Positions 22,261 through 60,684 of a stretch of 64,000 nt of DNA are shown here, piece by piece (the stretch's first letter is position 1; each line of letters begins with the position of its first letter). The notes beneath the pieces are model-generated. The model was given only the letters and a program-made list of their open reading frames with translations. It ran no database searches and was not told the origin of the DNA. A program made the position numbers and the translations under genes. Source of the stretch: Chimonanthus salicifolius (Eukaryota > Streptophyta > Magnoliopsida > Laurales > Calycanthaceae); contig CM023540.1 in NCBI GenBank assembly GCA_013350335.1, forward strand, positions 22,919,175 through 22,983,174, given 5' to 3'.

Positions 22261-22704
22261 TTGCATTTGTGCTATGAGGGACCATACTTTTTCCTATTTC
22301 CAAATAGGGGGACAGAGAGAGAAAATGCAATGACTTTTAATACTAATATTCCAGAGATTTCTAGGCAAGGAAATCGATCACTCTATCCATCAAACATCCC
22401 CTTTGGCTTTGGCATTGGCACATGGATTTCTTCCCCAAAACAATGGACTTTCCACCACAAGACAAAACCCCAATCATCAATTCATTCTCGCAATGTAAAT
22501 GTAGGACCCAATTCCCTCAAAAGCTTTCAAAAACTTCCATGCCTTTCTACTGTTCATCAACCACTCCCGATTCTTGCCTCACATCTCCTCTTCTATCCTA
22601 CTAATGAAAATTGTAAATTCCTCTCCATTTCTTCTTTCATGCTGATGTATTTTTATAACGTAGATATCTCTATTTATAATATAAATATCTCCATTCTACA
22701 TTAG
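22261..22704 (+). CDS. Unknown ORF, 147 codons, repeated in the right duplicate
   Basis: The frame is open for 147 codons and aligns in the same frame with 53645-54133, including an indel of exactly three codons. No domain, signal peptide or membrane helix is recognised. It sits about 1.1 kb upstream of the DUF1677 gene on the same strand, so it may simply be promoter-side sequence. Whether it is translated is unknown. Confidence 0.25.
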   Translation: MHLCYEGPYFFLFPNRGTERENAMTFNTNIPEISRQGNRSLYPSNIPFGFGIGTWISSPKQWTFHHKTKPQSSIHSRNVNVGPNSLKSFQKLPCLSTVHQPLPILASHLLFYPTNENCKFLSISSFMLMYFYNVDISIYNINISILH

Positions 22705-22860
22705 ATGTAATATTAATTTTATAGGCATGTATAAATCTCTCAATTCATATACATTAATTAAGTTTATAAAAAGTAGCATATTAAAGTTGAGTGTGAATTG
22801 CAACTCGAATACTCTATTTCACTGAGACTTGCATTCTTCATCAATCCCCTAATTATTTTT

Positions 22861-23213
22861 TGTTAGGCCTGAATTTCCAACTCAAAAGGCTACCTTGATA
22901 GGTAGATTGACCTAGACCTTTATAGCTCCTTAGACTTTCCCCTTTCACAACTAATGTGGGACTCTCGTTCACATCCCAACAATCTCTCTCTCAAACGATG
23001 CTTTTCGACAGGATAGAATGTCGCCAACTATCCTGTTTGGTTAGGAGATCCTTGAGTCTACATACTGTGGCTTGGAGACTTTGCTTTAATACCACTGTTA
23101 GGATTTGGCTTCCCACCTAAAAAACTAACCTAATAGGTGAAGTGACCAATACTTATAAGTCCTTATATTTCCTCCCTTGCAACGGATGTGGGACTCTCGT
23201 TCGCACCCCAACA
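22861..23213 (-). mobile_element. TRIM (miniature LTR retrotransposon), left copy
   Basis: Short direct repeats at 22861-22981 and 23096-23213 start TGTTAGG and end CCAACA, and both carry GTGGGACTCTCGTTC. The internal part is only 114 bp. On the minus strand it begins with GTGGTATTAAAGC, a variant of the initiator-Met PBS, and ends with a purine-rich GAGAGAGAT next to the other LTR. It has no coding capacity. The same element is present in the right duplicate, so it predates the duplication. Confidence 0.75.
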
Positions 23214-23806
23214 TTTTCCACTTCATCAATGATAACCATTGTTTAAAAACTCTAAATAACACTGGGACAAATTAATCTGAATCAATTTAACACAATAGGA
23301 TTGAGTTTTTTTAGCTTTAATTTTATTTTAAAATTGAATGCACCTAAAAATTTCCATCCAATTGTGATGTCGTATGAAAGAATCACACCCATTAAGATTT
23401 CTCTCTGATGGAGGTGTTGGTGAGGGCATTTTGGTTATTATTCTAGGGACCCATTTTCTCCCTAGGAACCCTTTGGGTCAATGCATTGACTGGGACTGGG
23501 AGCTTAAAGATATCAATCTTTTAGACCAACTAACCTTCTCCCTATCCCCACTTTAAAAATGTATTCTGCACAATTCTTCAGCCTTCCCCTTTCATCCATG
23601 CTCTATATATTCGGGGAATTAGAAATGGAGGAAATTCGATCACTCCCTGAGCAAATATATTTGTAAAATAAACCACTGGAAGATGAATAGCCTGTTCTGG
23701 TAGCATCAGCACTTGCAACTGTGACACCTGCGGCAACTAGTGATAAACCAGGAGTCCAGTATCGAAGACCAGTAGTTGCAGCAGCGACGGCTGCGGCGGC
23801 GGAGTG

Positions 23807-24295
23807 ATGGGAAGCACAGAAGTGGTGAAGAAAGCTGAATGTGGGTGTTGTGGAATGTTGGAGGAGTGCACAGTGGAATACATCAGATGGGTGGAGGAGA
23901 GGTTTGGAGGTGTTTGGGTATGTGGCCTTTGTGAAGAAGCCATCAAGGAAGAGCAAGCACGGCTTGGGGTGGGCATTGAAGTGGCTCTGCAATTGCATTC
24001 CACCTTTGTAGAGACGGCCAACGCCGATCCCACCATTAACATTGCACGTTCAATCCTCCAGCTGCTCAAGAAGATCACTTCTTCCCTCTTCTTCTGTAGG
24101 GAAGAAGAGGATGTTCACTACCTTTCGGTGATGGAAGAAGTTAATTCTGTTGTCTCGCCATGTTTTTTTAATAGACTAATTTCACGAGTAAGTGTAAACC
24201 TCCCAATCTATAAAAGGGTTAAATTGATGGAGAGTAATTTCTTAGAGAGTGGCTTGAAGGAAATGAACGTAAGTCGAACTCCAGATCGCATTTGA
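23807..24295 (+). CDS. DUF1677 family protein
   Basis: DUF1677 proteins are small plant-specific proteins with a Cys-rich zinc-ribbon-like core; no biochemical role is firmly known. This single-exon frame of 162 residues has the core near residues 9-50: ECGCCGMLEECTVEYIRWV followed by GVWVCGLCEEAIKEE, with the two CxxC pairs intact. A DPTINIAR segment parallels the DPTVRVA-type motif found after the core in the family. The ATG at 23807 is chosen; the codon before it is GTG. The last 60 residues do not match what I know of the family, so the true end may differ. The right duplicate is frameshifted. Confidence 0.75.
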   Translation: MGSTEVVKKAECGCCGMLEECTVEYIRWVEERFGGVWVCGLCEEAIKEEQARLGVGIEVALQLHSTFVETANADPTINIARSILQLLKKITSSLFFCREEEDVHYLSVMEEVNSVVSPCFFNRLISRVSVNLPIYKRVKLMESNFLESGLKEMNVSRTPDRI

Positions 24296-24299
24296 TAAA

Positions 24300-25060
24300 G
24301 AGGAAAAGGCCAACTCCTGTTGCTTCCTTTGTTGTTTTGCCCTTTTTCTGTTCCTACTAGCATCTTGGTTAATGTCTTGGTAATTGGTATTGAGTGGCTC
24401 TGTTTCCTTCAGTGTTGAAAAAATTGGTATTGAGTGGCTCTGTTTCCTTCAGTTGTTGCTCAATGCCAAAACTCCAATGGACCAATGTCATGTTGGTCTT
24501 ATTTGTGGGAGTTGAAAGTGGAATTTCATTGACCTCATTTTCGTATAGCTTCACTTTAAATTATGAAGATGAGTATGTTGACACGTGAATAAACATAAAG
24601 AAAAATCAATTTAAGTTCATCACTTTAAAGTATATTTATTTGAAAATTACAAATATTTAATGGTAACATAACATTTGAATTTAGTTATATGGTTAAATAG
24701 TTTAGAATAGCATCAATTAATGGAAAGATGGTGAATTTACGAGGAAACAAGAAGCATCAACAAAGACTACCAAATATGCTAGTATAACTTCATTCTAAAA
24801 TTTTCCAATAAATAGTTCTTATTGTAATAGTGGGTGAAATTGTTCACCGAAATAGTTTTATAGTAAAAATTTAAGAAAAATATTTATAAAAGTTTTAAGT
24901 ACATTATACATTTTTTTAGAATATATACAAAAAGGATGATGAATGAGCAACGATGCTGGTGGAATGAGAAACAGTAGTCGTTGGTTATATTATGTTTAGG
25001 ATAGATCTTGATGACAATACCATTGAATAGATTCAACAGTGTTTGACAACTTTATTCACC
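24300..25060. other. Downstream of DUF1677, no gene seen
   Basis: Non-coding on both strands. It contains a direct repeat of about 35 bp (AATTGGTATTGAGTGGCTCTG at about 24380 and again at 24422). The right duplicate has only one copy. Confidence 0.5.
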
Positions 25061-25064
25061 ATTT

Positions 25065-25250
25065 TTTTTAATAAGGTGTCTAGGCTTCTTAGTTCACCTT
25101 ACTAATCTTTGGATTATGTGCAAACCTCTCTATTTAGATACACCAGATGATTCTATGGAGAGTGACCCTTTAGTGTGGAGTGAGAATCGAACAAATGACT
25201 TCTGTTTCCTGAGGTGGGTTCTTGGCCATCAATCCAATCCCTTTAGATTG
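25065..25250 (-). mobile_element. SINE, minus strand, second family, left copy
   Basis: On the minus strand an A-box-like GATGGCCAAGAACCC is followed by a B-box-like GTTCGATTCTCAC, then GGGTCACTCTCCATAGAA and an A-rich tail (T run at about 25063-25070 on the plus strand). Present in both duplicates (57085-57262), hence older than the duplication. Confidence 0.6.
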
Positions 25251-25254
25251 ACAA

Positions 25255-26335
25255 CTTTATTCACCATTGGATGTACTTTTAGTGAGTCTTGTGATGATCC
25301 ATCATTGAATGCATTTCAATGAAGTCTCCATGACGATCATCCACCATTGAACATATTTCAATGAATCTTCATAACTCGATTCACCAATGGGTACATTTAT
25401 GCAAAGTCTTCATGACATCATCCACCGTTACATGTGCTTCAATAGGTCTTTTAGACTTGATCCATTCTTGGATGAGTTTCAACTCGTCTTAGTGACATCA
25501 TCCTCTGTGGTTCTAACTCACGCTTAATTGGGCCAGTTCATTCTTGAATGGACCCCTTTCATTCCTCACTTGTCATAATGAGTGAGATCAGGGCCATCCT
25601 TTCCACGAGCAAGCCTGATTTGGGCCTCGTTAAGGTCTTTTGAATTGATCCAAGTTAACCCCCTATATGTTGATCGGGTTGCATGGTTTTTGGGTTTTAA
25701 ATAGATCTAACTTCGGCTTTTGAGTTTGAGTGGGTCTTAAGAATGCAAAGCCCGGGCCCTAACCCAAATAGGCCTGCATTTCAAACTTTTCAAGTTGAGA
25801 AGAGCCAACATTAATTGCTCTTTTTAAAAGTTCTAAGCACCTGACAGAACAGAAAATATAAGGAAATAGATGATTCATATTTTCATGTTCATAGGTCAGT
25901 ATTGATTAATATAAGTTAAAAATCATTTGATGCATCAAATCTTTATGATGTTTCTGCAATTTGCAGGTAGTGAAACTTAATCATATGAAAGAAGAGGAAG
26001 ATTATAGATCCAACTCCCTTTTTTTTAAAATTAAATTTTTTTTCAGAAACAATTATTCCATGTCCATGGAAGAGAGGACAGGAAAGTTTAAAAAAAAATC
26101 CAAAAATTAAGGGATAATTTTGGATCCGAGCCAATATCCTCAACATCAACTTGTTATTTTCTTTAGTTGTTCTATATGATGAACCATCTGATGCTCTGAA
26201 GCTCCTGCTCAATACCTCCTTGGCCAGGTAGTTCAGTTCAGACATGTAAATGCATTTCTCATCAATAAAGTTTGTCGTTGTCTCTCTCTCTAAAAAAAAA
26301 TGTTAATGTAAACCATGAATTTTTTTTTGGAAATT
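25255..26335. other. Non-coding stretch of the left duplicate
   Basis: No gene recognised. A 100-codon minus frame at 26245-25943 has no family resemblance that I can name. Its lower half is not alignable with the right duplicate. Confidence 0.4.
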
Positions 26336-26336
26336 T

Positions 26337-26692
26337 TGTTGAGCATGAAATCACAAAATCAAACCACATACAAGAAGAACACACAGATTTTACGTGGTTC
26401 GGCAAAACCATCTACGTCCATGGAACGTACATCAAAATTCCACTATGAAGAATATCCCGAACAAGTTACAAGGATTCCCAACCCTTTCCCTTTCTTCTTC
26501 CTCAGAGTCTCTTTCTCCTCTATGTTTCTTTCCTCTCTTCTCATACCTAGAGAAATCACACAGGCAAAGAAAACCCTAGAGAGAGAATATAAATACTAGG
26601 GCTTAAGTTACACAGATTGGGCCTACTGGACCTGAGCTTACATAAATACAGTTTGGCCCAGTAAAGGCCTTTTGAGCCAAAAAAATCCAACA
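26337..26692 (-). mobile_element. Solo LTR with 5-bp target duplication
   Basis: The element starts TGTTGAGC, ends ATCCAACA, and is flanked by AATTT at 26332-26336 and 26693-26697. It contains TTTTACGTGGTTCGGC, shared with the LTR of the retrotransposon at 37144-46359 in the same relative position and orientation. No internal domain or second LTR, so it is a solo LTR of a Copia-type or TRIM-like element. Confidence 0.8.
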
Positions 26693-26749
26693 AATTTATG
26701 TCTCAAAGAGAAGGACAAGTTGTGGCTCCACCAAAAATCTGTGGTGGAT

Positions 26750-26922
26750 CATCCATATGAGTGTAGCTCAACTGGTAATCTTCCTCCTCAAGAAGTGGGA
26801 GGTATTAGGTTCGAACCCCATGTCCTCACCTGATGTGCCTTAAGGGTAGTGAGTATCACCCGTGGGGGTTTTACGTTGGTTTCCTGCGGTTTCCCACACA
26901 TAAATTAAAAAAAGAGAGTAGA
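26750..26922 (+). mobile_element. tRNA-derived SINE with 8-bp target duplication
   Basis: GTGTAGCTCAACTGGTAAT (A-box) and GGTTCGAACCCC (B-box) are followed by a 100-bp body ending TTTCCCACACATAAATTAAA and an A-rich tail. TGGTGGAT flanks it at 26742-26749 and 26923-26930. It is the best-preserved copy of its family here. The tRNA-like head lacks a full cloverleaf. Confidence 0.8.
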
Positions 26923-26934
26923 TGGTGGATAAAA

Positions 26935-28770
26935 GGTTAAAAACTTTGATCCCAATCTGATGGTTGATATCAATTTTGATGCTAGGTGTCACTTTCGATA
27001 TTTGGGCTTTGTCAAAACATGGTGTTGATTACTAGAGAGAAGTGTGTAATTGGCATAAGTGAGATTGGTAAAATGTCTATTAGGTAAGAAAGAATTCAAG
27101 GAGGTAAAGATTTCATGTTTCGAATGAGATTCGAAGGGCAATTAATCTGTGTTTTCTTTGATGGGAATTGGATGATGTAAATCTGCGACTCTTTCATTTG
27201 TCCTTCCATCTTTTAATTCATCAACAATAACAACGAAGAGCAAAATGGGAAGAGCAGAATTTACATCATCTAGTTCCTCATCAAAGAAGAAGTGCCAGTT
27301 CAAATCAAATCCCAATTCGAAGGCCTGTGTGCATGCAAATGGAGGATCATAAACAAAACAAAAAAAAAGTGGAAATGATGGTGCAGCTAAGTGTCAAGTA
27401 GGATTGCAGTTGTTTGAGGATTATTGCTTGATAACCAAAGTTTTTCTTTTTTTAAATACGCTCCGTGCCATTAGATATCAAAGAATACAGTGTAGGAAAC
27501 TATTGGTGATTACAAAGGCATTGAAGATATTCAAAGAAACATTCTCAAGGAAGCTTATATTAACAGAGAGGAAAGGGGGGAAAAACCTTGAGAAGGCTTC
27601 TAAAACTTGTTAGAGAAGTGAGATCATCATTAAGCAAATCGATGTCTTTTCTACCATGTGAGAGGACTGATAATTCTGTATAAACAAGAAGTAAAGAACT
27701 GCTCATTGGATAAGTAAACAATATCATATGTGAAGTTCTATGCTATTGCATAGGTTTTTGTTTTATAGTATATATGTTTATGTTTTACATCCTTACAATA
27801 TGGTTCTCCCATCTCAAATAGGTTTGCTGTTTCATTGCTAATAAATTCTGTTTCTTAACAAAAAGGAAAATTACACTGGATAGAGATGGGTAGGAAAAGT
27901 AGAACTCACGAATCCGACTCTAAATAGATAGTATATACAAGTGTAAAGAAATGGGTGACAGTCATTATCTATACACAGATAAGAAGCTTTCTTGTTGTGT
28001 GGTAAGCATTTGCTGTTGTAAGTGACATATAACAAATTTCTTAAGCTATTTGGATTAGCATAAGATCACAAAGCTGGGGTGATGTGTGTCCAATGTTCAG
28101 CAACTTAGACAATTACGAAGTGGAAAAGCTTCATGTCTTGTTAAGCCCTGAAGATTGTTACATCCTAGGTATGAACTTGTAGGTTACGATTCAAATCCCC
28201 CAGACGGCCTATTCATAAATTTTTCCAAATCAAATAACAAGTGTCAATCCCAAATTGATGGAATAAATGATTGAAGATGGAATAATTTAAGGAGGTATTA
28301 CGAACATCCTACTATCCATAGTCCTTTCAACATTCCATCACCATCTGTCTATATAGTCTTCTGTATATTGTGAGGAGTTATGGGAGAAACAACTCATTTT
28401 ACATATCCACACTGTAAAGATTGTTTCTGTTTCTATGTCAACCTCTTAAAATTGCTATAAAAGGAAAATAGAAGAAATGAGAATCAAATCATTCCAACTA
28501 TACACGAAGTAATGAAAGTAGCACTGATTTAGACTGCAAAACACGCCAGTTTCTACACAAGCTTTTCAGTGTAGACACTCCCATTACATAATTATACATA
28601 GCTCAGACCCATAAACCATTGTTCCATTAGCAGCTTGACACTGCCAAAACAGACAAGTACCCCAACACATTTTCACTCTCTCCAAAACATCAAACTGGTA
28701 GCTAATAAAAGAAGAGAAGAGGAGTAACACTTCTCAGACCCTACTACTGGCTGAGCACCATTTTTCTGGC
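26935..28770. other. Region 3' of the left annexin gene
   Basis: No gene recognised. Most of it (to about 28412) is absent from the right duplicate. The last 350 bases, shared by both copies, are the likely 3' untranslated and downstream region of the annexin. Confidence 0.45.
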
Positions 28771-28776
28771 ACCAGA

Positions 28777-30762
28777 CTATTCCGTGGAACCCAAAAGATA
28801 GAGAAGGAAGGTACGGTAGTGACTAGATGTCTCCGACTGTATGGCATGCCTAAGAGTTTTTCCATACTTCTTGCCATACTCTTCCTTGATTTCCTTAATA
28901 TCAATCTCTGCTCTTGTCACTATAACACGTATGAGTGTGCTATCTGAAGTTCCCATGCTTTTCATGCTGTCAGTGCAACACCTGATGAAAATTTCAGCAC
29001 AAACAGATTGGGATTTTTTAAAATATGTTTTCATTGACGAAAACCATTGGACCCATAATTCTTCCAAGTGATAGGTCACTAAAATCAATTCATATTAGTG
29101 TTACTCATTGCCGGATTAAAATAAATTGCTCTGGGTTCTACTGAGCTTCAATCCACCACTTATTTCAACACCCACATCTAACTGTTGGTGAAAACTGTTC
29201 AAGAGTTTTAAGGATAGTGGATTCTTTCATCCTCATGAAAATTTTGGTAGGAGGATGACATCATAGGATCACTTCTCTTAAAATCTTTAAATTCATTGGA
29301 AAACTAAAGAACATTTAAAGGTACCTCAGCGAAGTATTTAGGACGATTCTTAGCACAATTTAAGATCGTTAGTAGTGCGTACAGGAAGCTTCCAGATGTT
29401 TCGGCATTCAATGCCTGCAAGGGGAGATCATATGGAGTTTTTGTAAACATTATCAGTATCATATTTTTTGTTTCTGAAACAAAAAAAAAAAATACATGTA
29501 TAGACTAACTCTGTCGTTATGTATTATCACTGTATGTCCTAAAAAATTTGACAAGAAAAATCATAAGATCCAGTCACTATTACAAGAGCCAATAAAACGG
29601 TAGCAAGATTGGCATATAATAGATTTGATTCTGCTTATGCTTTGGAGGAGAGGGAGGATAAAAAGAAAAAAATACAGGACATTATGGGATCTCATGGACC
29701 AATCTGGGCCTTTATATGGCTTGACAGTTCAACTTTGTTGAGCTTGATTGTATTTATGGACCAAAAGCTCAACAACAACCTGGCCCAAATTTAGGTCCTG
29801 TGTGACAACAAGAATTCTTTAATGGAATTTGCAGTTTACAAAGTAGAATATCTGCAAATTTCTATGAAAATCCAATCTTACTAAGAATTGTGGGCTATCA
29901 AGCTGACCGAGGTTTGCATTTGGTTACAAGAGAAAATTTTGGTCAATTTATATGGCCTAGTTTTCTGAACATCTTAATTACCAAACGAGTGCTTCATGTT
30001 CGGAAATTCATTATTTTTATTTAATCCAATGTGATGAATGCCCACAAATGAAGTTACCTTTTCAAGAGAGTGGCCATAGCAACGTTGATAAGCAGAATCA
30101 ACCTCAACCAAGTGTTCGCTGCTTCGTTGGACGAAAATTCGAATGAAAGTCTTCTCGTCCGTCCCAAATCTTTTCTCTCCGGCATTGTATAGCTGTTTGG
30201 CATCTATCTCTGGCCTTTTCTTGTCTACGATCCCTCCCTCATCGCGTTTTTCATTTAAACATGCAATCAGCAACTGCAATATGGAGGGTTTGGTTTGATA
30301 TATTGATGTCAGAGAAAGAGGGTAAGAAATTTATGCATGGACTGAACATTAAAACACAAAAGCAGAAATTAGTGCATTTTAAGAAGGACAAATAACATTC
30401 ATAAAAGATAAAAATAATCACATAACATTTATAGGAATGGTGGAAAGATACTTGGTAAAAGATACTGGAAGAGGTAGCAAAATACCAAGCAATGGAGAAT
30501 ATGAATTTTTGTAATAAGTTAAGAGTTGATTTAACAGCTTAGAAAGATAACTAAACAGATAGTAAACATGACTACAGTTATGATGGAAGAGAATTTGAAG
30601 GTTGCTTGTAGATGGAGATGGATGGAAAATAAAGCTGAAATTTCACCTGAATTATAAAAAAACCATGGAACTGATATCTCACCCTCATTAGAACATCTGG
30701 GTATGGATTCTGGAACAAAATATAACTTGGGTAGCCCAATTTACATGATCAAGATGGATTGT

Positions 30763-30820
<58 letters not shown>

Positions 30821-33800
30821 ATTGACCTGTTTGTGATAGCCAACGATTGGGGAAGTGAATGCATTGATGTCATCTGCGAGTTCAGATCCATATATTCTCT
30901 TGTATGCTTGTTTAATCCCCTGTAACTGTGATGGTGTTCGAGAACAAATTACTTCACTCACTGCCTGTTTATCTATGGACAATTTGCTTAATCCCTGCCC
31001 CACTATTGTTGCATCCCTTTCTGCTTCATCAAGCATCCACAGAGTAACAGCTCTCTGGGAAACACACGACAGCCAGTATTAATGCAATCACATTACTAAA
31101 ACATCAACAAGCTGAGTTGGTCCAGCATTATGAGAGATGGATTTTCATTTAACTTTTCAGACCCAGGTGAGAATGGGACTGAAGATCTGAAAATCCCGTC
31201 AAAAAGTCAATTCACGGGTCATGAATATTGAGATTCATCGATCAATAGGGATAAAAGGTCTGGTTTCAAGAAGTTTTAGAGCTTTTGGCGTGTTGATTAT
31301 GTGCCTAATAATCAATGATTAATACCTTGATGCCCCTGCAGAATGTTTTGCCAAGGGCGCCCGTCGGATCGAGGCTCAATTTGAGACCGAGTTTCTCACT
31401 GATGTCGGATTTTACTGTGGAACCCAACTCGGTCGCGACTCGATCGATTAGATGCTCTGAGTACTTGGAGTAGTATTCATCTTGGATCCGGCGACGGTGC
31501 TCTGGATCGCGATGGGCTAAAATATTGATAACCTCTCCAACGTTGCAGCCTCTTCCTGGATTCAATCCATCACCAGTCACCACACATGCACTTGATGTGA
31601 AACAAGCTAAAGTAATTCTAGCCGGGCCAGGCCGGGCCGGAGTTTAGACTTGCCTGAGCCCAGGCTAGAATTACAATTAAAGGGCCTGAGTCCAATTCAA
31701 GCCCGAAATGTATATGTGGGCATTCTTCTAAGCCTCAAAATGAAATATATTTTACATAAATTTTATATTTATAGGAAACAACAATTAAAGAAAATTTAAT
31801 TTAATAAAATGTGGCTCAAATTTGGGTTTGTGGGCCAAGCTCAAGCTTTCATGTACTAAACCTTGCTGCAACCTGAGTTGTCATTTGGGCCTGATAGGCC
31901 CAAAATGAGCCCAAACTATTTTTTTTTCATACAGCTTAGATCAGGCCTGACTCAAGTTGCACCCCAGGTAATTTTAGTTTGTCCTAAATTTCAACTCTAT
32001 GTGCTAAAGGATCTTATTGTGAAATAAACTTTGTAACATCAATTGATTCCAAATAGAATAGAAAATGAATTAGGATAGTTAAATAGTATTTTCATAAAAA
32101 GACTATAATGGCAAAGAATATAGCCCCACTGCATAGGGTACATATTGAAGGCACTAGAGAGAGGTCAATGTTCATGAACACAAAGTGAAGAGATAAAAAA
32201 TGACATATTAAACTATAGAGAGACTGATGATATACTTTATAATATGTTCAATTGGAGAAAAAGAAACTCACAAAACTGACCTAGATAAATAAGATGATGG
32301 TTGATGATGATGATGATGACTATAATGGTAAAGAAGAGATTTTTTGTGTCTTCAAAACAATCACATCAATGTGTACTTTTGTATATTGATTTTTAAAAGG
32401 AGTCACTTAATCGGCTTTCTACCTTGACTTTTGGTTATTAAATTTTAAAGGTCACTCCCTGTAGATTTACCTAGTGTGTGTGGCTAGGAGGCTTGTACAT
32501 GCCACAAAAATAGGGGTGAAACTCAGGTCGGGTCAGCGGGTCGGGGTCAGGTTGACAAGACAAAAACCCGCATGGAATTTGGGTCAGGTCGGGTTGAGGA
32601 ATTTTCAAGTTAACCCGACCTAACCCAGTCCAACTCGACTCGACCCGGCTAAAATTAGGTTAAAATGGGTTTAGAATGTGGGTCGAGTCAGAATTCGGGT
32701 TGAGTTGGGTTAGAATTCGAGTCGGGTCGGGTTCCGTATTTTATTGACTTGGGTCGGGTTGGAATTTAAGAAACCCGACCAGACCCGATTTCAGCCCTAC
32801 GCAAATATTTATCAGGTGCTCTAAGAGGCCTGGACACCTTGGTCATTAAAAAAATCATTAAAAATTCATCTCTTTAGATTGAAAGTTGACACAGTGACTT
32901 ATAGATAGACAAAATTTGAGCCAAAAATCAAATTTTAACCATTTTATCTTAGTCGTAAAAACTACTACCATTCTTAAAAATCACTACGATTAGGACGCCG
33001 GGTGAGTTTGACCACTATGATCATGTTTCTAAATTCTAATAATTGAACTTTAGAATGAAATTTTGTTGACTTGTAGCTCATCGAGTGTGTAATCTGAATG
33101 GTTTCTTTCTTAATAAACTTTAAGATAATTAAAAAAGAAAAATAGATCAGGTGTACACACATGGCTAAACGGGTCAATAAGTCCAACAGATGTTTATGGG
33201 CTTATTCAATTAGCTTGATCCCACCCGTTCAGTTAAACGGGTTAAGAATTTGGCCCAAGCCTGCAACCCCCCTAGGCTCAAACTGTTACATATGTCAACT
33301 CTGTTAATTTATGATGGATTCAAGTAGCTCTCAAATTGTGTTTGGACTCATGAAAAGGCTCAACTTTAGATTCTCTGATTATATTTAGTGAAAGTGAGAA
33401 GACTCTTCTACGTACAGAAGATTCATTGTGCACTTTAATTTATTTATTACTTATTGAGAAATGATAAATTTTACAGCCATTAAAGTGGAAAAATGGTGAA
33501 TAAAGCAGCCAAAATTTCATTAAAATTGATTCTACGTTCTAAACAAAAAGTTGTACAAAAATAGTTTTTGTGGGCCAATAATCTAGTCCATGAGCTTGAA
33601 GTCAGGCATGACATCAACCATTTAGTAATTGACAAAGCAAGCATTTGTTAGATACTTAGATGTGCCAGACCAGTTTGATCTGAGTGGGCCTTCGCTAGAA
33701 ATTCCTCATCAAAATACCATCCATTAAAATAAGTTTAATCAACTAAAACTTAAAAGGAAGAAATAGATTAATAATTTCTTACTTCCTTTGTGTATAATAT

Positions 33801-35033
33801 CACGATGATTAGGTTAGGTCGTTCCTACACGTTTAATGATGTGCGTTAGATATTTGAAAGGATCTGCTCAACACGCCACATAGACTGCGTTTGGATAAGA
33901 GGTAAATTTTTTTAGGGTGGATAACTAATTATGAATACTTGAAGACTAAGAGTCTCACTTTTGAAAACCTTTTTTATGCACGAGGTATTCATAATAGAGC
34001 CGTAGAGTCAGAGTGCTCTGTGAAAATTTGAAATCTTACAAGCAATGGTTAGAAGAGAGTAGAAGAAGACACCTTTGAAAGCGGTGTGGAGATGAATGGC
34101 ATCTTGCTCAGGCGTACGATTGAGAATGGCATCAGCACGATCACTTTTGCTGGGCAGCAGTTGAGCATAAACAGCAGAATCCTGGCTCCCCCAACTCCCT
34201 CGTGCTTCGAGAGGAGCAGAACCTCCACTGGCATCACTAGTAACAGTTGTAAGAGGAGGAGGAGGAGGGTCTCGACTGGTAGGTGGAGGAGGAGGAGGGG
34301 CATCAACAGGAGCAGGACCTCCACTAGGAGGAGGAGGGGCATCAACAGGAGGAGGACCTCCACTAGGAGGAGGAGGGGCATCAACAGGAGCAGGACCTCC
34401 ACTAGGAGGAGGAGGGGCATCAACAGGAGGAGGACCTCCACTAGGAGGAGGAGGGGCATCAACAGGAGCAGGACCTCCACTAGGAGGAGGAGGGCCTCCA
34501 CTAGCATCAGGAGCAGTAGGCGGAGGAGGGGCGGCGTTGTCTTGATTCGTAGGCGCGTCGTTTGTAGAATTGCTGCCAAAGTTGGACATGAGGCTTGACA
34601 TCATATCCTTGGCAGCGCCTATAGGTATCGTATCTTTTAAAGTTGCCTGGGCGTCTCTGCTCAAGTTCGAGACAGCATCCCTGGCATTTTCCAAAGGGCT
34701 GCTTTGCTCCTGCTTCGGCTGCTCCGCCTCTATCGCCTTCTTTTCAACCCAAGGATCTGAGGGCGGATCCGGTGTCTTCGCTGCAGCATCGCCGTTGGTT
34801 AACGGTTCTTCTTTGCCATTATCGGCGGCAGCTTCTTCTTTTTCGACCACCTCACCTTCTTCTTCTTCGTCTTCGACCGCCTCACCTTCTTCTTCTTCTT
34901 CGACCGCCTCACCTTCTTCTTCTTCGTCGACCGCCTCTTCATCTCCATTATCGGTGGCATCATTAAATTCTTCTTCAGTCGCCCCATTTTCATCATCAGC
35001 AAACGGCGATAGAAGTGTAGTCATGGTATTCAT
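28777..35033 (-). CDS. Annexin with long acidic/proline-rich N-terminal extension; last exon frameshifted
   Basis: Annexins bind membranes through calcium. Exons: 35033-34073, 31555-31326, 31054-30827, 30709-30683, 30273-30058, 29414-29325, 28981-28777. All introns are GT-AG and phases agree. Exon 1 gives 320 residues: acidic 20-75, a helical stretch 111-152, Pro-rich 168-262, then [12 protein letters not shown], the usual annexin start. It joins in phase 1 to [17 protein letters not shown], repeat I. Repeat II follows ([18 protein letters not shown]), a 27-nt microexon, repeat III ([17 protein letters not shown]) and repeat IV ([20 protein letters not shown]). The core resembles annexin D5. 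The start is bounded by an in-frame TAG 12 nt upstream. In exon 7 one extra base gives TGA at 28972-28970, removing about 64 residues including most of repeat IV. Intact length would be about 651, twice a usual plant annexin. Confidence 0.85.
30766..30816. repeat. (GA)n microsatellite next to annexin exon 3 donor
   Basis: A pure GA run of about 51 bp lies 10 bp inside the intron after exon 3. Read with the gene it is (CT)n directly downstream of the GT donor. The right copy has a longer, interrupted run. Confidence 0.9.
31612..31674. repeat. Short foldback repeat in annexin intron 1
   Basis: GTAATTCTAGC at 31612-31622 is perfectly inverted at 31664-31674, with GGGCC-rich sequence between. 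The right duplicate has the same foldback, but split by a 327-bp MITE. Confidence 0.75.
31680..32500. other. Annexin intron 1, repeat-derived part
   Basis: Part of the 2.5-kb first intron. It has repeated GGGCC/GGCCC words (31621-31960), suggesting an old non-coding element, then AT-rich sequence with a (GAT)n run near 32300. No coding exon is needed here. Confidence 0.45.
32511..32799. mobile_element. hAT-type MITE, left copy
   Basis: Left end TAGGGGTGAAAC, right end inverted as TAGGGCTGAAAT. The interior is built of CGGGTCGGGTT words. The 8-bp flanks CACAAAAA and CGCAAATA match at six of eight positions. The right duplicate has the same insertion at 62742-63019 with better-matching ends. 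Confidence 0.65.
34300..34494 (-). repeat. Coding minisatellite, five 39-bp units, in annexin exon 1
   Basis: Five head-to-tail 39-bp units (34300, 34339, 34378, 34417, 34456) each encode 13 residues of the pattern [13 protein letters not shown]. The variable residue alternates Ala, Pro, Ala, Pro, Ala, so the array probably grew as 78-bp pairs. The frame is kept throughout. Confidence 0.9.
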
Positions 35034-37143: not shown

Positions 37144-39090
37144 TGTTGGTCAAGCTAGATTGTCCTAGAGGGGGGTGAATAGGACAATTGCGGAATTTTA
37201 AATTTCTTTCGAACTTTGGTCAATTAAAATTGGGTTTTTACTAATTAATCCAATTGATCTTCCAAAATATTGAGATTTATAATAAATAATGAATGTGAAG
37301 TGAAATCTCAGCAAACACAACTTCACCAAACAAGTGTGGTAGAAATATAAGAAATAAACACAAATGCATAAAGTAAGGTGAGGAGGTGAGAAGAGATGGA
37401 AAATCTTGACACAAGGATTTTTACGTGGTTCGGCAACCTTGCCTACATCCACGCCTCAAGTACACCACTTGAGGATTCCACTAACTTTCTCCTTCACGGG
37501 TGGAGAAGAAACCTATTACAATCATTGATCTCCTTAACGGGTAGAGATCGAACCTTTACAACACTTGATCTTTTTCACTGGTGAAGATTTGACCAATGAC
37601 ACACAAGAGAACACCTCTCTTGAAATTTCACAAGGGTTACACCAACCCTTTACAATTTTCTCAATAAATAATGGAAAGAATAGTTTTTGAGAAATACCAA
37701 GAACACTAGCCTCGAATTGCTTGAAGTAACTTCGGCGTGCTCTTGAATGTCCTTCTCCTTGCTATGCTCCTTGGTGATGAGTAGATGCTCCGTTGAATAT
37801 CAAACCAAAGATTAGGAGAAGAGGTTTAGGGAAGATAAATGATTTTCCTATGAGAACAATCTATCCCTAAAGGTTCTCTTAAATACACACCCAAGAGTGA
37901 GCCTAAGATGCTCAAGATTTGCCTATGAGAGCTTTGAGTGTGAATGAGATTGAGCTTAAGAACTTTGGTAATCTAACTATGGAGATTTAGTGCTCTTGAA
38001 ATGATTGGGAGTCTTTGAGAATGTTAGAGAGCATTTTTCTCATCAAGAATCAAACTTTGGAATGCCCTAAGGTCATACATTTAAAGCCCTCTTGAAAATA
38101 TGGCCGTTGGAAGTCGAAATCACAAGAATAGAGCCGTTAAAAACTTCCCGTTGCTATTTCAGTCGACTGAACTTAAGATTCAGTCGACTGAAATGCCCAG
38201 CAATGACCGTTGAAACATCTGGGCATAATTCAGCCGACTGAAACAAATATTAAGTCGACTGAAATAGTTTAAGTCGACTGAAACATAAATTCAGCCGACT
38301 GAAACTCGTCTGAGGCTGAAAAGACGAATCTGCAGCACATTCAGTCGACTGAAACATGAATTCAGCCGACTGAATCTCGGCAGTTTTGGTACACCTCCAC
38401 TAAAATGACCATAACTTGGGTTTACGAACTCGGTTTTGAGAGTTCTTGGGCTCTTTAGAAAGATCATTGAGAGATCTATCTACTCACCAAATTTGGTCCA
38501 ATTTGAGGTGCATTTGATATCTCAAATAATCTCTCAAATTAAGGGTATATGACAAAATTGTTTTGATATGTTTTGCACCCTTTCATTAAAATGCTCATAA
38601 CTTGAGCTATACATTTCCAAATTGGGTGTTCTTGGACTTTTTGAAAAGCTCTTTTAGTGCTCCATCAAATCATTAAGATTTTACTAATACATGGGAACAT
38701 TTGATGGGAGAAAAATCTTGTCCAAAATAGAGCAAAATTCACCTAACCTAAGAAATCCAAATTAGCCCAACCAAATTCTAAGTTATGGATTCTAAAGTTT
38801 GTCCCAATGGTAATTCTAGGTCTTGTAAGTCATTGCTAAGGTCCAAATACCTGTGTTGGTTGATATTCATGACGTTCTTCCGATTTCGGTGCAATACCTT
38901 CTAAATGACGTGTCTTCTGGAGCTTCAAACTTGATTTGACTACATAAGTCTTCCAGAGGCACGGTCTTGACACCCGAACAAGGTCACGACAAGTCACACA
39001 AATTGACAACTCATGACTCAGTCGGACACAGTCACGGAATTGACAACTCAGTCTAACTCAGGGGAGGCAGATTTAATTTTTAAGCCAACA
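37144..39090 (-). repeat. 3' LTR (minus-strand element)
   Basis: TGTTGG...CCAACA ends, 1947 bp. Differs from its partner at only one noticed base. Contains the eight-fold palindrome cluster at 38158-38374 and TTTTACGTGGTTCGGC near 37421. Confidence 0.95.
38158..38374. repeat. Eight copies of a 14-bp palindrome in the LTR
   Basis: TTCAGTCGACTGAA or close variants (TTCAGCCGACTGAA, TTAAGTCGACTGAA) start at 38158, 38179, 38229, 38250, 38269, 38290, 38340 and 38361. The same cluster is at 45427-45643 in the other LTR. Spacing is irregular, so this is a set of binding-site-like motifs, not a simple tandem repeat. Confidence 0.9.
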
Positions 39091-39661
39091 ATCTCCCCCT
39101 TTGTCAATTTCGTGACAAAACCTAGAGAATACTCTATGCAGTCCCAAATACAAATTACAGACTTTAACAAGTACAAATACATGCCAAGTACAAAAATACA
39201 ATATTACAATAATCTCAATACACTTGGACATGACTGTATGAAGTCTGAAGGCTTGAAGGTTCAAGGCTGCTCCCCCTTAGAATATGCCTGCGATATTCCT
39301 GTATGCACAACATAAATGACATATTCTGGTAGAAAGTAATCTCCCCAATCGTTAGTGACAATAAACAATATGTGTTTAATTTTATAACATGTCTTAAAAT
39401 AACAATTGCTCCCCCTATCTTTGATACCAATATTGAATTTTTGTTTCTCCCCCAATCTTCATGTATTGACCCTTCAAAAGTTTTCTCTCATGAAAACATT
39501 TGTGTCTCCAGTATTTCAATATTTCTCCCCCTTTTTGTCAAAATTGACAAAGGGCCATGTTAAGAATTTTACATGGAGCACAAGATGGTCATTTGAATAA
39601 GTATAACCTCTCCAGGTTATCATAAACCTTGTCAAATAAGTATTCACATTTACTCCCCCTT
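39091..39661 (-). promoter_or_regulatory. Polypurine tract and a series of PPT-like tracts
   Basis: The PPT directly at the 3' LTR is AAAGGGGGAGAT (minus strand, 39102-39091). Further GGGGGAG-type tracts lie at about 39270-39278, 39409-39416, 39447-39453, 39525-39532 and 39653-39660, with no comparable density elsewhere in the element. The one at 39525 also shares the neighbouring TTTGTCAA context. Confidence 0.8.
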
Positions 39662-42600
39662 AATGTTGGAGGGTGACAAAGGTCTAGAGGTACATGTCAT
39701 AGCATCTCATCATTCATCTAGACAAATATACCTATATAGGGGCAAATGTAATGAGTTATACTAAGACAATGCCATATTTCCAAATGGTATGTGATATGAC
39801 TATAAGCATGGGGAAGGGGAGGAAGGAGAGAAAGGGAAAGCCAATGGTATTTTCAAGATCATTCCAAGTGATACTATATATGGATAGAGATTTAACTTTT
39901 AAGTCCCATTAGTGATACCACTATGATCAATTTAATGGTCTTACACAGTTCTCTTAATGTTCTATGGTTATGAACTGAGGCCAAACAATGAATTTGATAC
40001 CAAATGAAACACAATGATATATATATTTGCCAAAATAAAAATGTCATAAATTTTCAAAACTAATATAATTATGTACGACATTCGGAGAAATGCATCACAA
40101 GTGTACATGGGTAAGGGATGAGACATTTTGACAAGATATACATGTACACAGGGATATTCAAGCATTCATACTTCCATGGAATAACGAACATATACCAATC
40201 ATGCATATCATCATGAAAGCAATTGTAAGACACACCATTTTCCACAAATACATTAAATTGATTAGCCACATTTAAACATAAGTATTTGGGAAGACCATCT
40301 ACCCTATTTGTTTTCAAATATCACACCCCATCAAGAATATATGCTCACAAGTGAAGAATACCATCCATTTATCCAACAAGCAATGCACTAATCTTCCAAT
40401 TTGAAAGCACATGAAAGATCCACCCAACTTTTCATTTTTCATGAATAATCAATAGATTTGACTATCATAAACACCATATGTATTCATGAAAAATGCGAAC
40501 TACTTATGGATATTTGATCATGTACTATTAAAACATTATTCATGAGCATCTTTTATTTTTAACACTCATAAAAATATGCCACTATTAAAGAACTAGAGTT
40601 TTAAAACAAGGTAGATGGAGTTGGAAGTTCTAGGGACCTATAAAGAGTGTGACTAGGTTTGAGGCCATTGATTAAAATAATTAAGTTCATTGTCTGAGAA
40701 GTCCATCCAACCCAAGTTATGTACTGTGGTGAGGTTATGAAATCATCATTAATAGAAGTCATTAAAATGAAGCCAAGGGTGAAGTCATATGAGTGGAGCG
40801 CAGAAAAGAATGCTCATGATTTAGAACAGAGTATTCAATGTGGAATACATTTATGAAGCATAAGTAGTCATGCCACACTATGATCATAAGATAGGAGTGG
40901 AAGATTGATGTTCAGATAAGCTCTATGTGGATGTTCATGAGGTTGTTGCATGAAAAGAGTATTGAGTGATTCATCCAAAAGTGATTGACCAGTATCCCTT
41001 AAACATTTATGGAGAGGGGGAATTTTGAAAAGTATGAGAGTAAACTACTTATAGAGTACTCTTTCCAAGGTATTATCAATTTGTTTTTCTCCAATTGTAC
41101 ATTTCCGCACATGACTCATATAATCATCCATTTAGCCCAGTGTAAAGTTGTTTTCACTTAATAGAATCATAACAACAGGGCTTCATTTGTCTTTTATAGC
41201 CAAGAACACATGTAAGTACAAAGGACAAGGTGTTGGAGACAATTATTTGCCATTCATATCTGATACCATAGATAATTATGAAAAGTTGTATGGTCCAAAA
41301 CAATGCCAATCATGAGAGTGTCTTCATGAAGTAATTATAACAATTTCAGCAATATACACTTTAAGAGAGTGACATCTCATCCTTAATGTTCACTTGAATG
41401 ACGGATCATAGCAAGGTATGAAAACAATTCACAAAAGATCAATGATTTTGTGAAGCATTTTAATTTGTGACCGTTTCATTTTTCTTTAAACTCAAATGTT
41501 ATCATGGAAATCAAGTCATAATATAAGTATACAAATTACAGATGGCAAGCCCATAAGATAAGTCAATAGGAGTTGCATTTCAAGCATATTTATCAAATAA
41601 AAGAGATATCTTTAGCATGAGTATTTCTATATCCCTTATAACCCAAATGATTGACTTGTGGATATAGCATGAGTTTCAGGGTATGAAATTTAGATTACCA
41701 AAATGCAAGCCAATATGATGTTTTAATTCGGATTACATTTCATTTTTACTAAGCTACTTTGACTTCCATGTATAAGATAAGATTTTATCATTGTCAAGAT
41801 ATGGAAGATCAAGGTGAAGGGCTAATTTTCATTAAGCATTATTCAGGATGAGGGACACTGTGGCTTTCAGTTTTACAGTTAAATGCCTTTTAACTTCAAA
41901 TCAGTACTAAACCATCAACTAAGGATTTAGTGAAAATCATGGGAATGAATGAGACGTCTCATGAAGATGTATTGGCCAAATGGATGTTTTCACAATGTAT
42001 GTAATGACCAAAGATATTCATTCAAGAGATAGCCACAACATATAATTCAGACATGAAAATATTTTCAAGGATGCTCAAGGTATAATCATCGAGTCAAGCC
42101 AATATGGGGATTTTTAGCACAGAACCAGAGTTACTGCAGTTTGCAGTAACTGAAATTTCAGCATATTTTGGTATGGCTGAATTTGAATAAGAAAGGTCTA
42201 GTGGATTAAATTATGTTCATGAAGGAGAAGATCCATAATAATCCTTAGACGATAGTCATTCATTCAGTTGTTATAGTGATTTGGATTTTACTTGAAAGTA
42301 TATTCAATCATGCTCATACAATCCTTTGGACATGCTTACAAATGAAAGTTATCTAGATCATATCTCAAGTTTATCAAATGTGAGACCTACTTCTAATTAT
42401 CCATTTCAGTCCTTCCAGACATATCAAGATTCCTCAATTTATCATTTACTGAAAGGTGCAGATGTGTATAAATGAGAAAGTGGAAATAACCTAGTATTTA
42501 TCCATATCACAAACATTTTGCATTGTGTAATGGTGCTAATGTTTCTGTTAGTCATTCATCAATAATACCAGACATAAGACCAAAAATTGAGCAGTAGATA

Positions 42601-42821
42601 CCCATTATGTCAATCAGTAATAGCAAGCCATATATATATATTCATTCCTCAAGTATGATACTCATAAAAGAAACAGAACATATACAGATTCATCAAATAT
42701 AAGTAATACGGCAATAGATGATTAAGGCAAGAAGAAATCCAAACATGACAGATTCTAATGTGAAGGTATATGTTTAAGAACATGGAATCTGACAGAGGTT
42801 CAAACTCATGAGTGTCAAGAT
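39662..42821. other. Non-coding interior of the retrotransposon
   Basis: About 3.2 kb, AT-rich, where pol would lie. No frame over about 80 codons and no recognisable integrase or reverse transcriptase piece on either strand. What it descends from is not visible. Confidence 0.65.
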
Positions 42822-44345
42822 CTAACCCACTCCCCTAACTTTGGGAACCCATTGGGTGATAGAAGAAGGTCTACGGGGTCCAATGATGTCAAACACATGA
42901 ACATTTGACTTTCTCTTTTCAGTGTTCTTGTTTGTTTGACAGAATTTTGTAAATTCATTTAAAGCTTCAATTAATTTATGAGTTAAGGCATAATTTAGAT
43001 TTCCATTTAAGTTGTTATGCCTTTGTCCTTGATTTTGAAATTTTGGTGGATAACTCTTTTGATTTTTGTTTACAAATTTTTTTCTTATCTTTGAGTTAGC
43101 ACTTTTTGATTCTTCATTGTGAACCTTTTGCCTTTGATATTTCATTTTTATTTGATTTGCATTTTGATATTGATTTTCTTTTCTTGATTTGCATTCAAAC
43201 ATTAGATGCCCGGTTTGCCCACAATAAAAACATTTTATGATTTTGAGTGGAGGAGTTGAGAGAGACTTACTTTTTACAAAAATAGTTGGTTTGACGGATT
43301 CTTTAACATTTTTCTTGTCATAACCAAGACCCGTCTTATCTCCAAAGGGTTTACTCAATTTCAAGAGTTTTTCAAGTTTCTCTTCTCCTTTGGTGAACTT
43401 CAATTCAAATTTTTCTTTATATCGTTTTAAATCATTTACTTCTTTTATGAGCTTTTGATTTTCAACACTTAGAATTGATTGAGCTTGTGGAATATGGTTT
43501 TTTAGCTCTTTGAGTTCATTTTTTATTTTGGCATTTTCTTCTTCTTCACCACTTAGCACAATTTTCAAAAGTTTATAGTCTTCTTTTAATAAGTGAAGTT
43601 CATGCTTTAGTTTTCTTACTTCATTTTCAAGATTAGCTTTTTCTTCAATTTCCATTTTTAAGCACTCTTCAAGTTTTAGACAATCTTTTTGTTTGGCGTT
43701 AGAATTTTCTTGAATTTTATCTCCTTTAAATTTTAATGCCTTTTCTTTAGCTAATTCTAATTCTTTTAAGATTTTCTCATTTGTTAACTTTTCATAACTT
43801 AGCTCATTCGAAAGTTTTTTGTTTTCATTCATTGCCTTAGTAAATCTTTTAGTTAACTTTTCAAATTCAAGACATAGATCTTTATAGCCTTCTTGAAGAA
43901 TATCATATTCTTGTTCTTCTTGTAAATCTTCATCTTTAGGTTCTTCAATTATATTATTGACATTATTATGTTCAAGAGTTTGGATGGGTCCTAGACAATA
44001 GACTTCTTCCATCGTTTCTTCCTTCTTAGGTTTTTCATGGGTTTCCTCTAAAATGTCCCATGCCTCTTTTGCGGTTTCACATGATATGATGTTGTCCAAG
44101 ATGTTTGATGAAACGGCACAAAATATGGCATCAAGGGCTTTTGCATTGGCCGAGTGCATACTCTTTTCAACATCACTCCAAGTGAAGTAACTTTTGATTG
44201 GTTGAGTCCAACCACATTTAATCATTTCCCAAAGAGCTCCATCTACTTTGATTAAACATACATTCATTTTAGCTCTCCAAAGAGCATAGTTGGAGCCATC
44301 AAAGATTGGAGGACTCATCATAGCCAAGCTATCTCCCATTGACAT
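42822..44345 (-). CDS. gag: Copia/Sirevirus-type gag polyprotein, 507 aa
   Basis: Gag forms the particle in which the element's RNA is packaged. The frame is uninterrupted. Residues 12-105 match the first half of the Copia gag core (PPIFDGSNYALWRAKM, ETAKEAWDILEETHE). The second half of that core, normally 100-plus residues, is absent: the sequence passes directly to a Lys/Glu-rich segment. Residues about 140-330 form a long coiled coil. KPFGDKTGLGY at 332-342 is typical of Sirevirus gag. A CCHC zinc knuckle (C372, C375, H380, C385) follows, then a basic Asn/Lys-rich stretch. It ends with a QWVPKV segment like the gag/pol junction of related elements, then stops. Confidence 0.88.
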   Translation of the reverse strand: MSMGDSLAMMSPPIFDGSNYALWRAKMNVCLIKVDGALWEMIKCGWTQPIKSYFTWSDVEKSMHSANAKALDAIFCAVSSNILDNIISCETAKEAWDILEETHEKPKKEETMEEVYCLGPIQTLEHNNVNNIIEEPKDEDLQEEQEYDILQEGYKDLCLEFEKLTKRFTKAMNENKKLSNELSYEKLTNEKILKELELAKEKALKFKGDKIQENSNAKQKDCLKLEECLKMEIEEKANLENEVRKLKHELHLLKEDYKLLKIVLSGEEEENAKIKNELKELKNHIPQAQSILSVENQKLIKEVNDLKRYKEKFELKFTKGEEKLEKLLKLSKPFGDKTGLGYDKKNVKESVKPTIFVKSKSLSTPPLKIIKCFYCGQTGHLMFECKSRKENQYQNANQIKMKYQRQKVHNEESKSANSKIRKKFVNKNQKSYPPKFQNQGQRHNNLNGNLNYALTHKLIEALNEFTKFCQTNKNTEKRKSNVHVFDIIGPRRPSSITQWVPKVRGVG

Positions 44346-44398
44346 TTTACTAGCTTAAGATCAACTCTTAGACGGTTAAGTCGAGTACAAGAGACCTC

Positions 44399-44410
44399 GC
44401 TCTGATACCA
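44399..44410 (-). promoter_or_regulatory. Primer binding site for initiator Met tRNA
   Basis: TGGTATCAGAGC on the minus strand, two bases after the 5' LTR end. This is the usual plant initiator-Met PBS and fixes the element's orientation. Confidence 0.93.
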
Positions 44411-44412
44411 AT

Positions 44413-46359
44413 TGTTGGTCAAGCTAGATTGTCCTAGAGGGGGGTGAATAGGACAATTGCGGAATTTTAAATTTCTTTCGAACTTTGGTCAATTAAAATT
44501 GGGTTTTTACTAATTAATCCAATTGATCTTCCAAAATATTGAGATTTATAATAAATAATGAATGTGAAGTGAAATCTCAGCAAACACAACTTCACCAAAC
44601 AAGTGTGGTAGAAATATAAGAAATAAACACAAATGCATAAAGTAAGGTGAGGAGGTGAGAAGAGATGGAAAATCTTGACACAAGGATTTTTACGTGGTTC
44701 GGCAACCTTGCCTACATCCACGCCTCAAGTACACCACTTGAGGATTCCACTAACTTTCTCCTTCACGGGTGGAGAAGAAACCTATTACAATCATTGATCT
44801 CCTTAACGGGTAGAGATCGAACCTTTACAACACTTGATCTTTTTCACTGGTGAAGATTTGACCAATGACACACAAGAGAACACCTCTCTTGAAATTTCAC
44901 AAGGGTTACACCAACCCTTTACAATTTTCTCAATAAATAATGGAAAGAATAGTTTTTGAGAAATACCAAGAACACTAGCCTCGAATTGCTTGAAGTAACT
45001 TCGGCGTGCTCTTGAATGTCCTTCTCCTTGCTATGCTCCTTGGTGATGAGTAGATGCTCCGTTGAATATCAAACCAAAGATTAGGAGAAGAGGTTTAGGG
45101 AAGATAAATGATTTTCCTATGAGAACAATCTATCCCTAAAGGTTCTCTTAAATACACACCCAAGAGTGAGCCTAAGATGCTCAAGATTTGCCTATGAGAG
45201 CTTTGAGTGTGAATGAGATTGAGCTTAAGAACTTTGGTAATCTAACTATGGAGATTTAGTGCTCTTGAAATGATTGGGAGTCTTTGAGAATGTTAGAGAG
45301 CATTTTTCTCATCAAGAATCAAACTTTGGAATGCCCTAAGGTCATACATTTAAAGCCCTCTTGAAAATATGGCCGTTGGAAGTCGAAATCACAAGAATAG
45401 AGCCGTTAAAAACTTCCCGTTGCTATTTCAGTCGACTGAACTTAAGATTCAGTCGACTGAAATGCCCAGCAATGACCGTTGAAACATCTGGGCATAATTC
45501 AGCCGACTGAAACAAATATTAAGTCGACTGAAATAGTTTAAGTCGACTGAAACATAAATTCAGCCGACTGAAACTCGTCTGAGGCTGAAAAGACGAATCT
45601 GCAGCACATTCAGTCGACTGAAACATGAATTCAGCCGACTGAATCTCGGCAGTTTTGGTACACCTCCACTAAAACGACCATAACTTGGGTTTACGAACTC
45701 GGTTTTGAGAGTTCTTGGGCTCTTTAGAAAGATCATTGAGAGATCTATCTACTCACCAAATTTGGTCCAATTTGAGGTGCATTTGATATCTCAAATAATC
45801 TCTCAAATTAAGGGTATATGACAAAATTGTTTTGATATGTTTTGCACCCTTTCATTAAAATGCTCATAACTTGAGCTATACATTTCCAAATTGGGTGTTC
45901 TTGGACTTTTTGAAAAGCTCTTTTAGTGCTCCATCAAATCATTAAGATTTTACTAATACATGGGAACATTTGATGGGAGAAAAATCTTGTCCAAAATAGA
46001 GCAAAATTCACCTAACCTAAGAAATCCAAATTAGCCCAACCAAATTCTAAGTTATGGATTCTAAAGTTTGTCCCAATGGTAATTCTAGGTCTTGTAAGTC
46101 ATTGCTAAGGTCCAAATACCTGTGTTGGTTGATATTCATGACGTTCTTCCGATTTCGGTGCAATACCTTCTAAATGACGTGTCTTCTGGAGCTTCAAACT
46201 TGATTTGACTACATAAGTCTTCCAGAGGCACGGTCTTGACACCCGAACAAGGTCACGACAAGTCACACAAATTGACAACTCATGACTCAGTCGGACACAG
46301 TCACGGAATTGACAACTCAGTCTAACTCAGGGGAGGCAGATTTAATTTTTAAGCCAACA
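44413..46359 (-). repeat. 5' LTR (minus-strand element)
   Basis: TGTTGG...CCAACA ends, 1947 bp, followed on the minus strand by the PBS. The palindrome cluster lies at 45427-45643. Confidence 0.95.
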
Positions 46360-46366
46360 ATTCGAA

Positions 46367-53635: not shown

Positions 53636-53644
53636 TTTCAAATA

Positions 53645-54133: not shown

Positions 54134-54141
54134 TTCTTTTT

Positions 54142-57080: not shown

Positions 57081-57084
57081 CCAT

Positions 57085-57262: not shown

Positions 57263-57264
57263 CT

Positions 57265-58600: not shown

Positions 58601-58605
58601 CCAGA

Positions 58606-60599: not shown

Positions 60600-60684
<85 letters not shown>

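Follow-up and report, generated by a model that had tools for sequence, protein, structure and literature searches.

A long acidic and proline-rich first exon in a magnoliid annexin gene of Chimonanthus salicifolius

The 64,000-nucleotide stretch of the Chimonanthus salicifolius genome analysed here (the window) carries a gene of the annexins, proteins that bind calcium and membranes; all features of this gene, copy A, lie on the minus strand. Its first exon encodes about 306 residues of extension together with the start of the annexin core. The gene has an insertion in annexin repeat I that is common to Lauraceae and Magnolia proteins, and it falls in one clade with the long annexins of the Lauraceae; the four-repeat annexin core of copy A is not intact. 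The reading that we favour, and consider reasonably probable, is that a magnoliid gene of the annexin D5-like type, with a first exon extended upstream, is present in two or more tandem copies, that intact members would tether cargo to membranes and that copy A has recently been damaged.

In this reading the first exon of the ancestral gene would have grown upstream, and the gene would now be present in at least two tandem copies. Exon 1 would encode, in front of the core, an acidic arm that is largely disordered, then a short helix and a linker of proline repeats. The annexin core of intact members may dock on membranes with the arm projecting from its concave side; the arm could then bind partners or self-associate and in this way tether cargo to the membrane, a role played in animals by the tail of annexin A11. 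A broader proposal, which we put forward tentatively, is that the magnoliids evolved their own long-tailed annexins in parallel with animal annexins A7 and A11: tandem genes that fuse, within a single exon, a rapidly changing disordered arm (acidic head, helix and Pro/Gln-rich stalk) to a core whose repeat I has an enlarged loop on the membrane side, the products acting as calcium-gated tethers for cargo or condensates. A long floppy front end of this kind is known from animals and has been said to be absent from plants. A magnoliid clade that breaks this rule would, if real, be a natural test of repeated tail evolution toward tethering or condensation.

Gene structure of copy A

Exon 1 of copy A runs from 35033 to 34073 (961 nt, 320 codons plus one base) and is free of stops. 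It comprises the extension (residues 1–306), the annexin start (residues 307–320) and the first base of codon 321, which stands directly before the donor GTGTCTTC. Exon 2 (31555–31326) begins after the acceptor side GATTGAATCCAG (…AATCCAG), and GRGCNVGEV is read on in the matching phase; intron 1 (34073/31555) is a canonical GT–AG intron in phase 1. A first-pass annotation of the window had proposed this open frame, with the annexin start at a phase-1 GT donor, and this junction, and both hold. Its description of an acidic, helical and Pro-repeat extension sharing one exon with the annexin start is likewise borne out; of the 320 residues that it gives, however, about 306 are extension and the last 14 or so already belong to the annexin start.

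Exon 2 encodes most of repeat I, with an insertion of about 30 residues after ATELG. Exons 3 (31054–30827), 4 (30273–30058) and 5 (29414–29325) are bounded by GT–AG throughout, in phase 0. No stop occurs in exons 1–5, and the Pfam family Annexin (PF00191) matches the spliced product of these exons in three stretches (E = 2.7e-45). Phase 1 has been reported for the first introns of land-plant annexin genes and phase 0 for the later ones, and copy A has this intron pattern of the plant annexin (D) family. Because the phase pattern is conserved, the extension seems to have arisen by growth of the ancestral first exon at its upstream end, with no exon added; the gene thus suggests that such a tail can originate by in-frame repeat growth, without exon shuffling.

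The N-terminal extension

The extension is ordered as an acidic segment, a predicted helix, five 13-residue proline repeats and a linker. The acidic segment (residues 1–92; 35033–34758) is 41% Asp/Glu, with a net charge of −35, and contains a nine-residue repeat. In the helical segment (residues 113–153; 34697–34575) a single-sequence model predicts helices at 113–135 and 138–153, and the amphipathicity of the segment was matched by 37 of 2000 shuffles. Five copies of PPPPSGGP(A/P)PVDA then follow at residues 181–245 (34493–34299). The AlphaFold model of exon 1, made with no alignment, has a mean predicted local distance difference test score (pLDDT) of 51.6 and is of low confidence over most of its length; its helices are those at 113–135 (block means of ∼80) and 138–153, and that of the annexin start at 308–319.

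At the DNA level, exon 1 contains a 39-nt tandem array with a 97% match and zero indels and a 27-nt tandem array with ∼7% indels, in which the frame nevertheless stays open. The 336-nt stretch 34835–34500, which is not repetitive, has no stop in frame 0 versus six and four in the other two forward frames. Codon usage does not clearly tell the three forward frames apart: the coding frame ranks first in two of three non-repeat pieces, by small margins.

Relatives and family placement

A search with the core of copy A (residues 300–575) gave 167 proteins at E ≤ 0.001 among 2025 candidates, and the best 120 of the 167 were examined. The first eight matches include P0002 from Cinnamomum (622 residues), P0003 and P0005 from Persea (677 and 703 residues), and P0004 and P0007 from Magnolia sinica (366 and 375 residues), each with 55–56% identity to the copy A core. 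A second search with the P0005 core as the query, whose length limits shut out ordinary 316-residue annexins, gave 34 proteins: 12 from plants by name and 22 animal or unnamed. Both searches are limited to proteins having short words in common with the query and so do not cover plants in full. Nine of the 12 plant rows (P0002, P0003, P0005, P0064, P0041, P0122, P0015, P0141 and P0037) have more than 100 residues ahead of the annexin part. Some of these long models appear doubtful because repeat I is missing or rearranged in P0041 and P0122 and P0037 starts with what, by eye, resemble membrane helices; the acidic part of P0041 sits in the middle of the model. Residues before the annexin start motif number 294 in P0002, 345 in P0003, 374 in P0005 and 297 in P0064. 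The check proposed in the first-pass annotation, for plant annexins with more than 200 residues in front, thus finds Lauraceae models with 294–374, and the extension cannot be regarded as unique, since these Cinnamomum and Persea models carry theirs ahead of a related core. Among the matches listed from open-licence papers, we found none that deals with long tails of plant annexins or with the annexin family of the Lauraceae or the magnoliids. In P0122 (Persea, 621 residues) the middle of the tail contains several repeats of about 18 residues of the type DTYKDTKQQAEETQKMAS, which are LEA-like by eye.

The insertion in repeat I (up to about 30 residues, directly after the acidic residue of the D–E loop) is present in eight of 12 aligned rows, namely the window copy, four Lauraceae proteins (P0002, P0003, P0005 and P0064) and three from Magnolia; among these eight it is shorter in P0015, and it is lacking in all four canonical D5 rows. 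In copy A it separates helix D of repeat I from helix E, as in the magnoliid insertion type. A regular-expression survey of the insertion gave a score for only 51 of 145 proteins and is not used as a count. A 24-row tree built on repeats I–III unites the two window copies with six Lauraceae rows in a single clade of eight (support 100/98), which is joined by three Magnolia rows (100/99); canonical D5 proteins, including another Magnolia protein and one from Annona, fall outside the insertion group. The long extension is present in seven of the eight rows of the window–Lauraceae clade, the remaining row being copy B, exon 1 of which is beyond the window. Judged by its core sequence, the window gene is a member of the Laurales-type long annexin clade, and on this placement its tail belongs with magnoliid long annexins that are already present as gene models. 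Taken by itself, the tree would most likely put the source of the window among the magnoliids, in kinship with the Lauraceae.

The tails also resemble one another in composition. The net charge over the first 120 residues is −32 in P0002, −35 in P0003, −39 in P0005 and −27 in P0064, compared with −35 over 92 residues in the window. An acidic start followed by a P/Q-rich end toward the core is common to the window tail and the four Lauraceae tails profiled, and the two tails that were modelled have a predicted helix at 113–135 (window) and 107–136 (P0002).

Core model and possible function

The model of P0002, built with 24 sequences, is mostly confident in the core, and nearly all of its tail outside 107–136 is below 60. 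The insertion (355–357 and 359–372) is below 50 and lies between helices 340–357 and 372–385. Foldseek listed 50 Protein Data Bank matches to this model, every one an annexin or an annexin fusion; annexin A11 is the third of them. One strict GxGT calcium site is present in each of P0002, P0003, P0005 and P0064, the four proteins checked. PMC6890474 describes ANXA11 as joining RNA granules through its low-complexity tail and binding lysosomes through its core, and PMC10882027 describes the longer annexin tails as proline-rich and annexin tails as binding partners. By analogy, the intact Lauraceae genes may plausibly act as membrane tethers in the manner of A7/A11; such a role is doubtful for copy A, whose repeat IV is out of frame.

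Copy B and the duplicated segment

The first-pass annotation had suggested reading beyond position 64000 for a second copy of the exon. A second copy of the gene, copy B, is present inside the window (61420–58606, minus strand) as exons 2 (61420–61191), 3 (60919–60692), 4 (60106–59891), 5 (59242–59152) and 6 (58809–58606); its exon 1 would fall past 64000. Copy B is 94% identical to copy A at the DNA level over a 3,228-column alignment. Its exon 5 has one extra base (91 nt versus 90 nt in copy A), and a new AG 13 bases into this exon would restore the frame with the loss of four residues. Exon 6 of copy B is intact.

The two copies belong to a collinear duplicated segment (22287–33492 and 53625–63682, 85–96% identity in pieces). 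This segment carries a DUF1677 gene (PF07911 at 23747–24295, E = 4e-24) as well as the annexin, and the tandem unit is therefore larger than the annexin gene.

Evidence against the proposed reading

A number of results, from the state of the coding sequence to the comparison of the tails, weigh against the reading set out above. The first-pass annotation, which stopped at exon 2, had the exon structure right but overlooked that exon 6 of copy A (28981–28777) is out of frame by one base relative to the phase of exon 5. In that phase it reads GTG TTG CAC TGA, with the stop at 28972–28970 after three codons, where copy B reads GTG TTG CAC AAC AGC; the product as drawn has 578 residues and ends three residues into exon 6. 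The repeat IV frame (28971–28777, through … GSTE) is otherwise open, displaced by one base, and when read in its own frame the exon 6 tail matches PF00191 with E = 2.8e-19. The four annexin repeats are thus not in one frame in either copy, owing to exon 6 in copy A and the extra base of exon 5 in copy B. A scan restricted to acceptors gave no rescue of copy A exon 6: all seven in-frame AGs upstream of repeat IV meet stops first, and of the eight stop-free in-frame AGs inside repeat IV the first (28905) already costs about 25 of its residues. The broken frame of exon 6 makes recent damage to this family member the best reading of copy A; that it is damaged at all is probable from the sequence.

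Over 315 in-register codons, copies A and B differ with a nonsynonymous divergence (Ka) of 0.041 and a synonymous divergence (Ks) of 0.078 (Ka/Ks of 0.53, Fisher p = 0.045). Introns 2–5 differ at 44 of 1807 aligned bases (0.025), which is below both Ka (Fisher p = 0.027) and Ks (p = 0.0002). Since Ka exceeds the intron divergence, selection to keep the protein since the duplication appears to have been weak at best. Between 28777–31555 and 58606–61420, 43 of 968 exon positions and 64 of 2200 non-coding positions differ; without CpG transitions the figures are 33 of 968 and 61 of 2200, with no difference between them (p = 0.36). Positive selection was considered as a cause of the faster exon change and set aside: CpG transitions explain part of it, and the p value of 0.36 applies to the remainder. 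The type II calcium motif GxGT-(∼38)-D/E was not found in exons 2–6 of either copy when read exon by exon (using the part of copy B exon 5 after the extra base), and repeat IV reads SMGT in both.

In the P0002 model the helix at 107–136 has a pLDDT of ∼60 in the middle and below 50 at its ends. Five of 20 segment comparisons between the window and Lauraceae tails were reached by fewer than 5% of shuffles (1, 11, 19, 35 and 43 of 1000); two of these are acidic against acidic and three involve the linker, which aligns to Lauraceae residues 81–159 and not beside the core. The linker match to P0005 (1 of 1000) was rejected as positional evidence, as it aligns to P0005 residues 96–121, away from the core. 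No segment match to the Lauraceae tails was obtained for the helix and Pro segments, and the last 60 residues beside the core gave a null result against all four tails. In a profile comparison of the extensions, 23 of 100 block-shuffled controls reached the observed score, and a homologue search with extension residues 92–172, which had 97 candidates, gave no match at E ≤ 10. These comparisons do not establish that the extension is homologous to those of the Lauraceae; the tails may go back to one gain followed by rapid change or to repeated gains.

Alternative explanations

With homology of the extensions not established, the window and Lauraceae tails might have been gained independently, with repeats expanding separately in the same exon. 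The different 458-residue low-complexity extension of Rhododendron P0141 indicates that gains can recur. However, seven of the eight rows of the window–Lauraceae clade are long-tailed (copy B exon 1 being beyond the window and P0041 being rearranged), and in the window, as in the four Lauraceae tails profiled, an acidic start precedes a P/Q-rich end. We regard independent gains as a serious possibility, if the less probable course. It is considerably less probable that exon 1 is spliced internally, or that its AAG/GTGAGG donors skip to exon 2, so that little or no extension meets an intact annexin start. Three such strong phase-1 donors (34912, 34885 and 34855) do lie inside the acidic repeats, in frame with exon 2, and pyrimidine-rich in-frame acceptors also occur inside exon 1, for example at 34204. 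These sites are consensus matches, however, within an exon that is open as a whole, and a direct skip would delete the annexin start, which forms helix A of repeat I. No in-frame Met was found in exon 1 after residue 149, so a short annexin could not start from a later ATG of this exon, and the extension is retained in the Lauraceae genes, which are known as models.

The damage itself could be an artefact: if the shifted frame of exon 6 in copy A and the additional base of exon 5 in copy B were both assembly errors, the gene would be an ordinary intact long annexin. Each copy has a single shift with frames that are otherwise open on both sides, but neither shift is inside a long homopolymer, each adjoins a substitution in the alignment (28971 and 29403) and the change in copy B also creates the frame-restoring AG; we consider this explanation unlikely, though not negligibly so. 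Still less credible, and in our view the least probable of these alternatives, is that copy A works as a three-repeat long annexin, with the exon 6 stop in use and the arm plus repeats I–III as the product. Exons 1–5 are stop-free and the Ka/Ks ratio is 0.53 (Fisher p = 0.045); with the stop codon in the last exon, nonsense-mediated decay is not expected. On the other side, the open and annexin-like repeat IV frame downstream of the stop points to a recent accident, repeat IV is kept in copy B exon 6 and in the Lauraceae relatives, and Ka is above the intron divergence. Recent damage to one copy of an upstream-extended, tandemly duplicated magnoliid gene remains the reading that we prefer.

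Other features of the window

A long terminal repeat (LTR) retroelement occupies 37144–46361. Its 1949-bp terminal repeats are 99.95% identical, and a minus-strand copia-type gag with a CCHC knuckle lies at 42822–44354. No further open reading frame (ORF) of at least 110 residues was found inside the element, which, given this and its near-identical terminal repeats, looks young and gag-only. A minus-strand ORF at 11645–12619 encodes a WWE domain (PF23467, E = 1e-29), a domain type known from plant RCD1/SRO proteins.

Comparison with known systems

The closest counterparts of the window gene are the D5-like models of the Lauraceae. Those from Cinnamomum micranthum (P0002) and Persea americana (P0003 and P0005) have the 55–56% identical core, these three and P0064 have the same repeat I insertion, and the Lauraceae models, including P0064 and P0122, have the long acidic and then P/Q-rich N-extension and fall in one clade with the window gene. 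Their tails are P/Q-rich, whereas that of the window has PPPPSGGP repeats, and the two are not convincingly alignable; unlike copy A, P0002, P0003, P0005 and P0064 have an intact repeat IV and the strict GxGT site. Canonical plant annexin D5 (316 residues) has an annexin core like that of the window gene, with intron phases of 1 and then 0 reported for plant annexins generally, but in its four aligned rows the start motif is preceded by 15 residues and repeat I carries no insertion.

Animal annexins A7 and A11, as described in PMC10882027 and PMC6890474, likewise have the core behind a long Pro-rich N-terminus. The window tail differs from theirs at its start, where a strongly acidic segment is followed by a predicted helix, and it belongs to a different lineage. 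Within plants, Rhododendron simsii P0141 (758 residues) is also an annexin model with a long low-complexity extension. Its repeats are of the PPEV/TTESI type, it is without the repeat I insertion (by eye) and it falls in another clade, and it is possibly an independent long tail outside the magnoliid clade.

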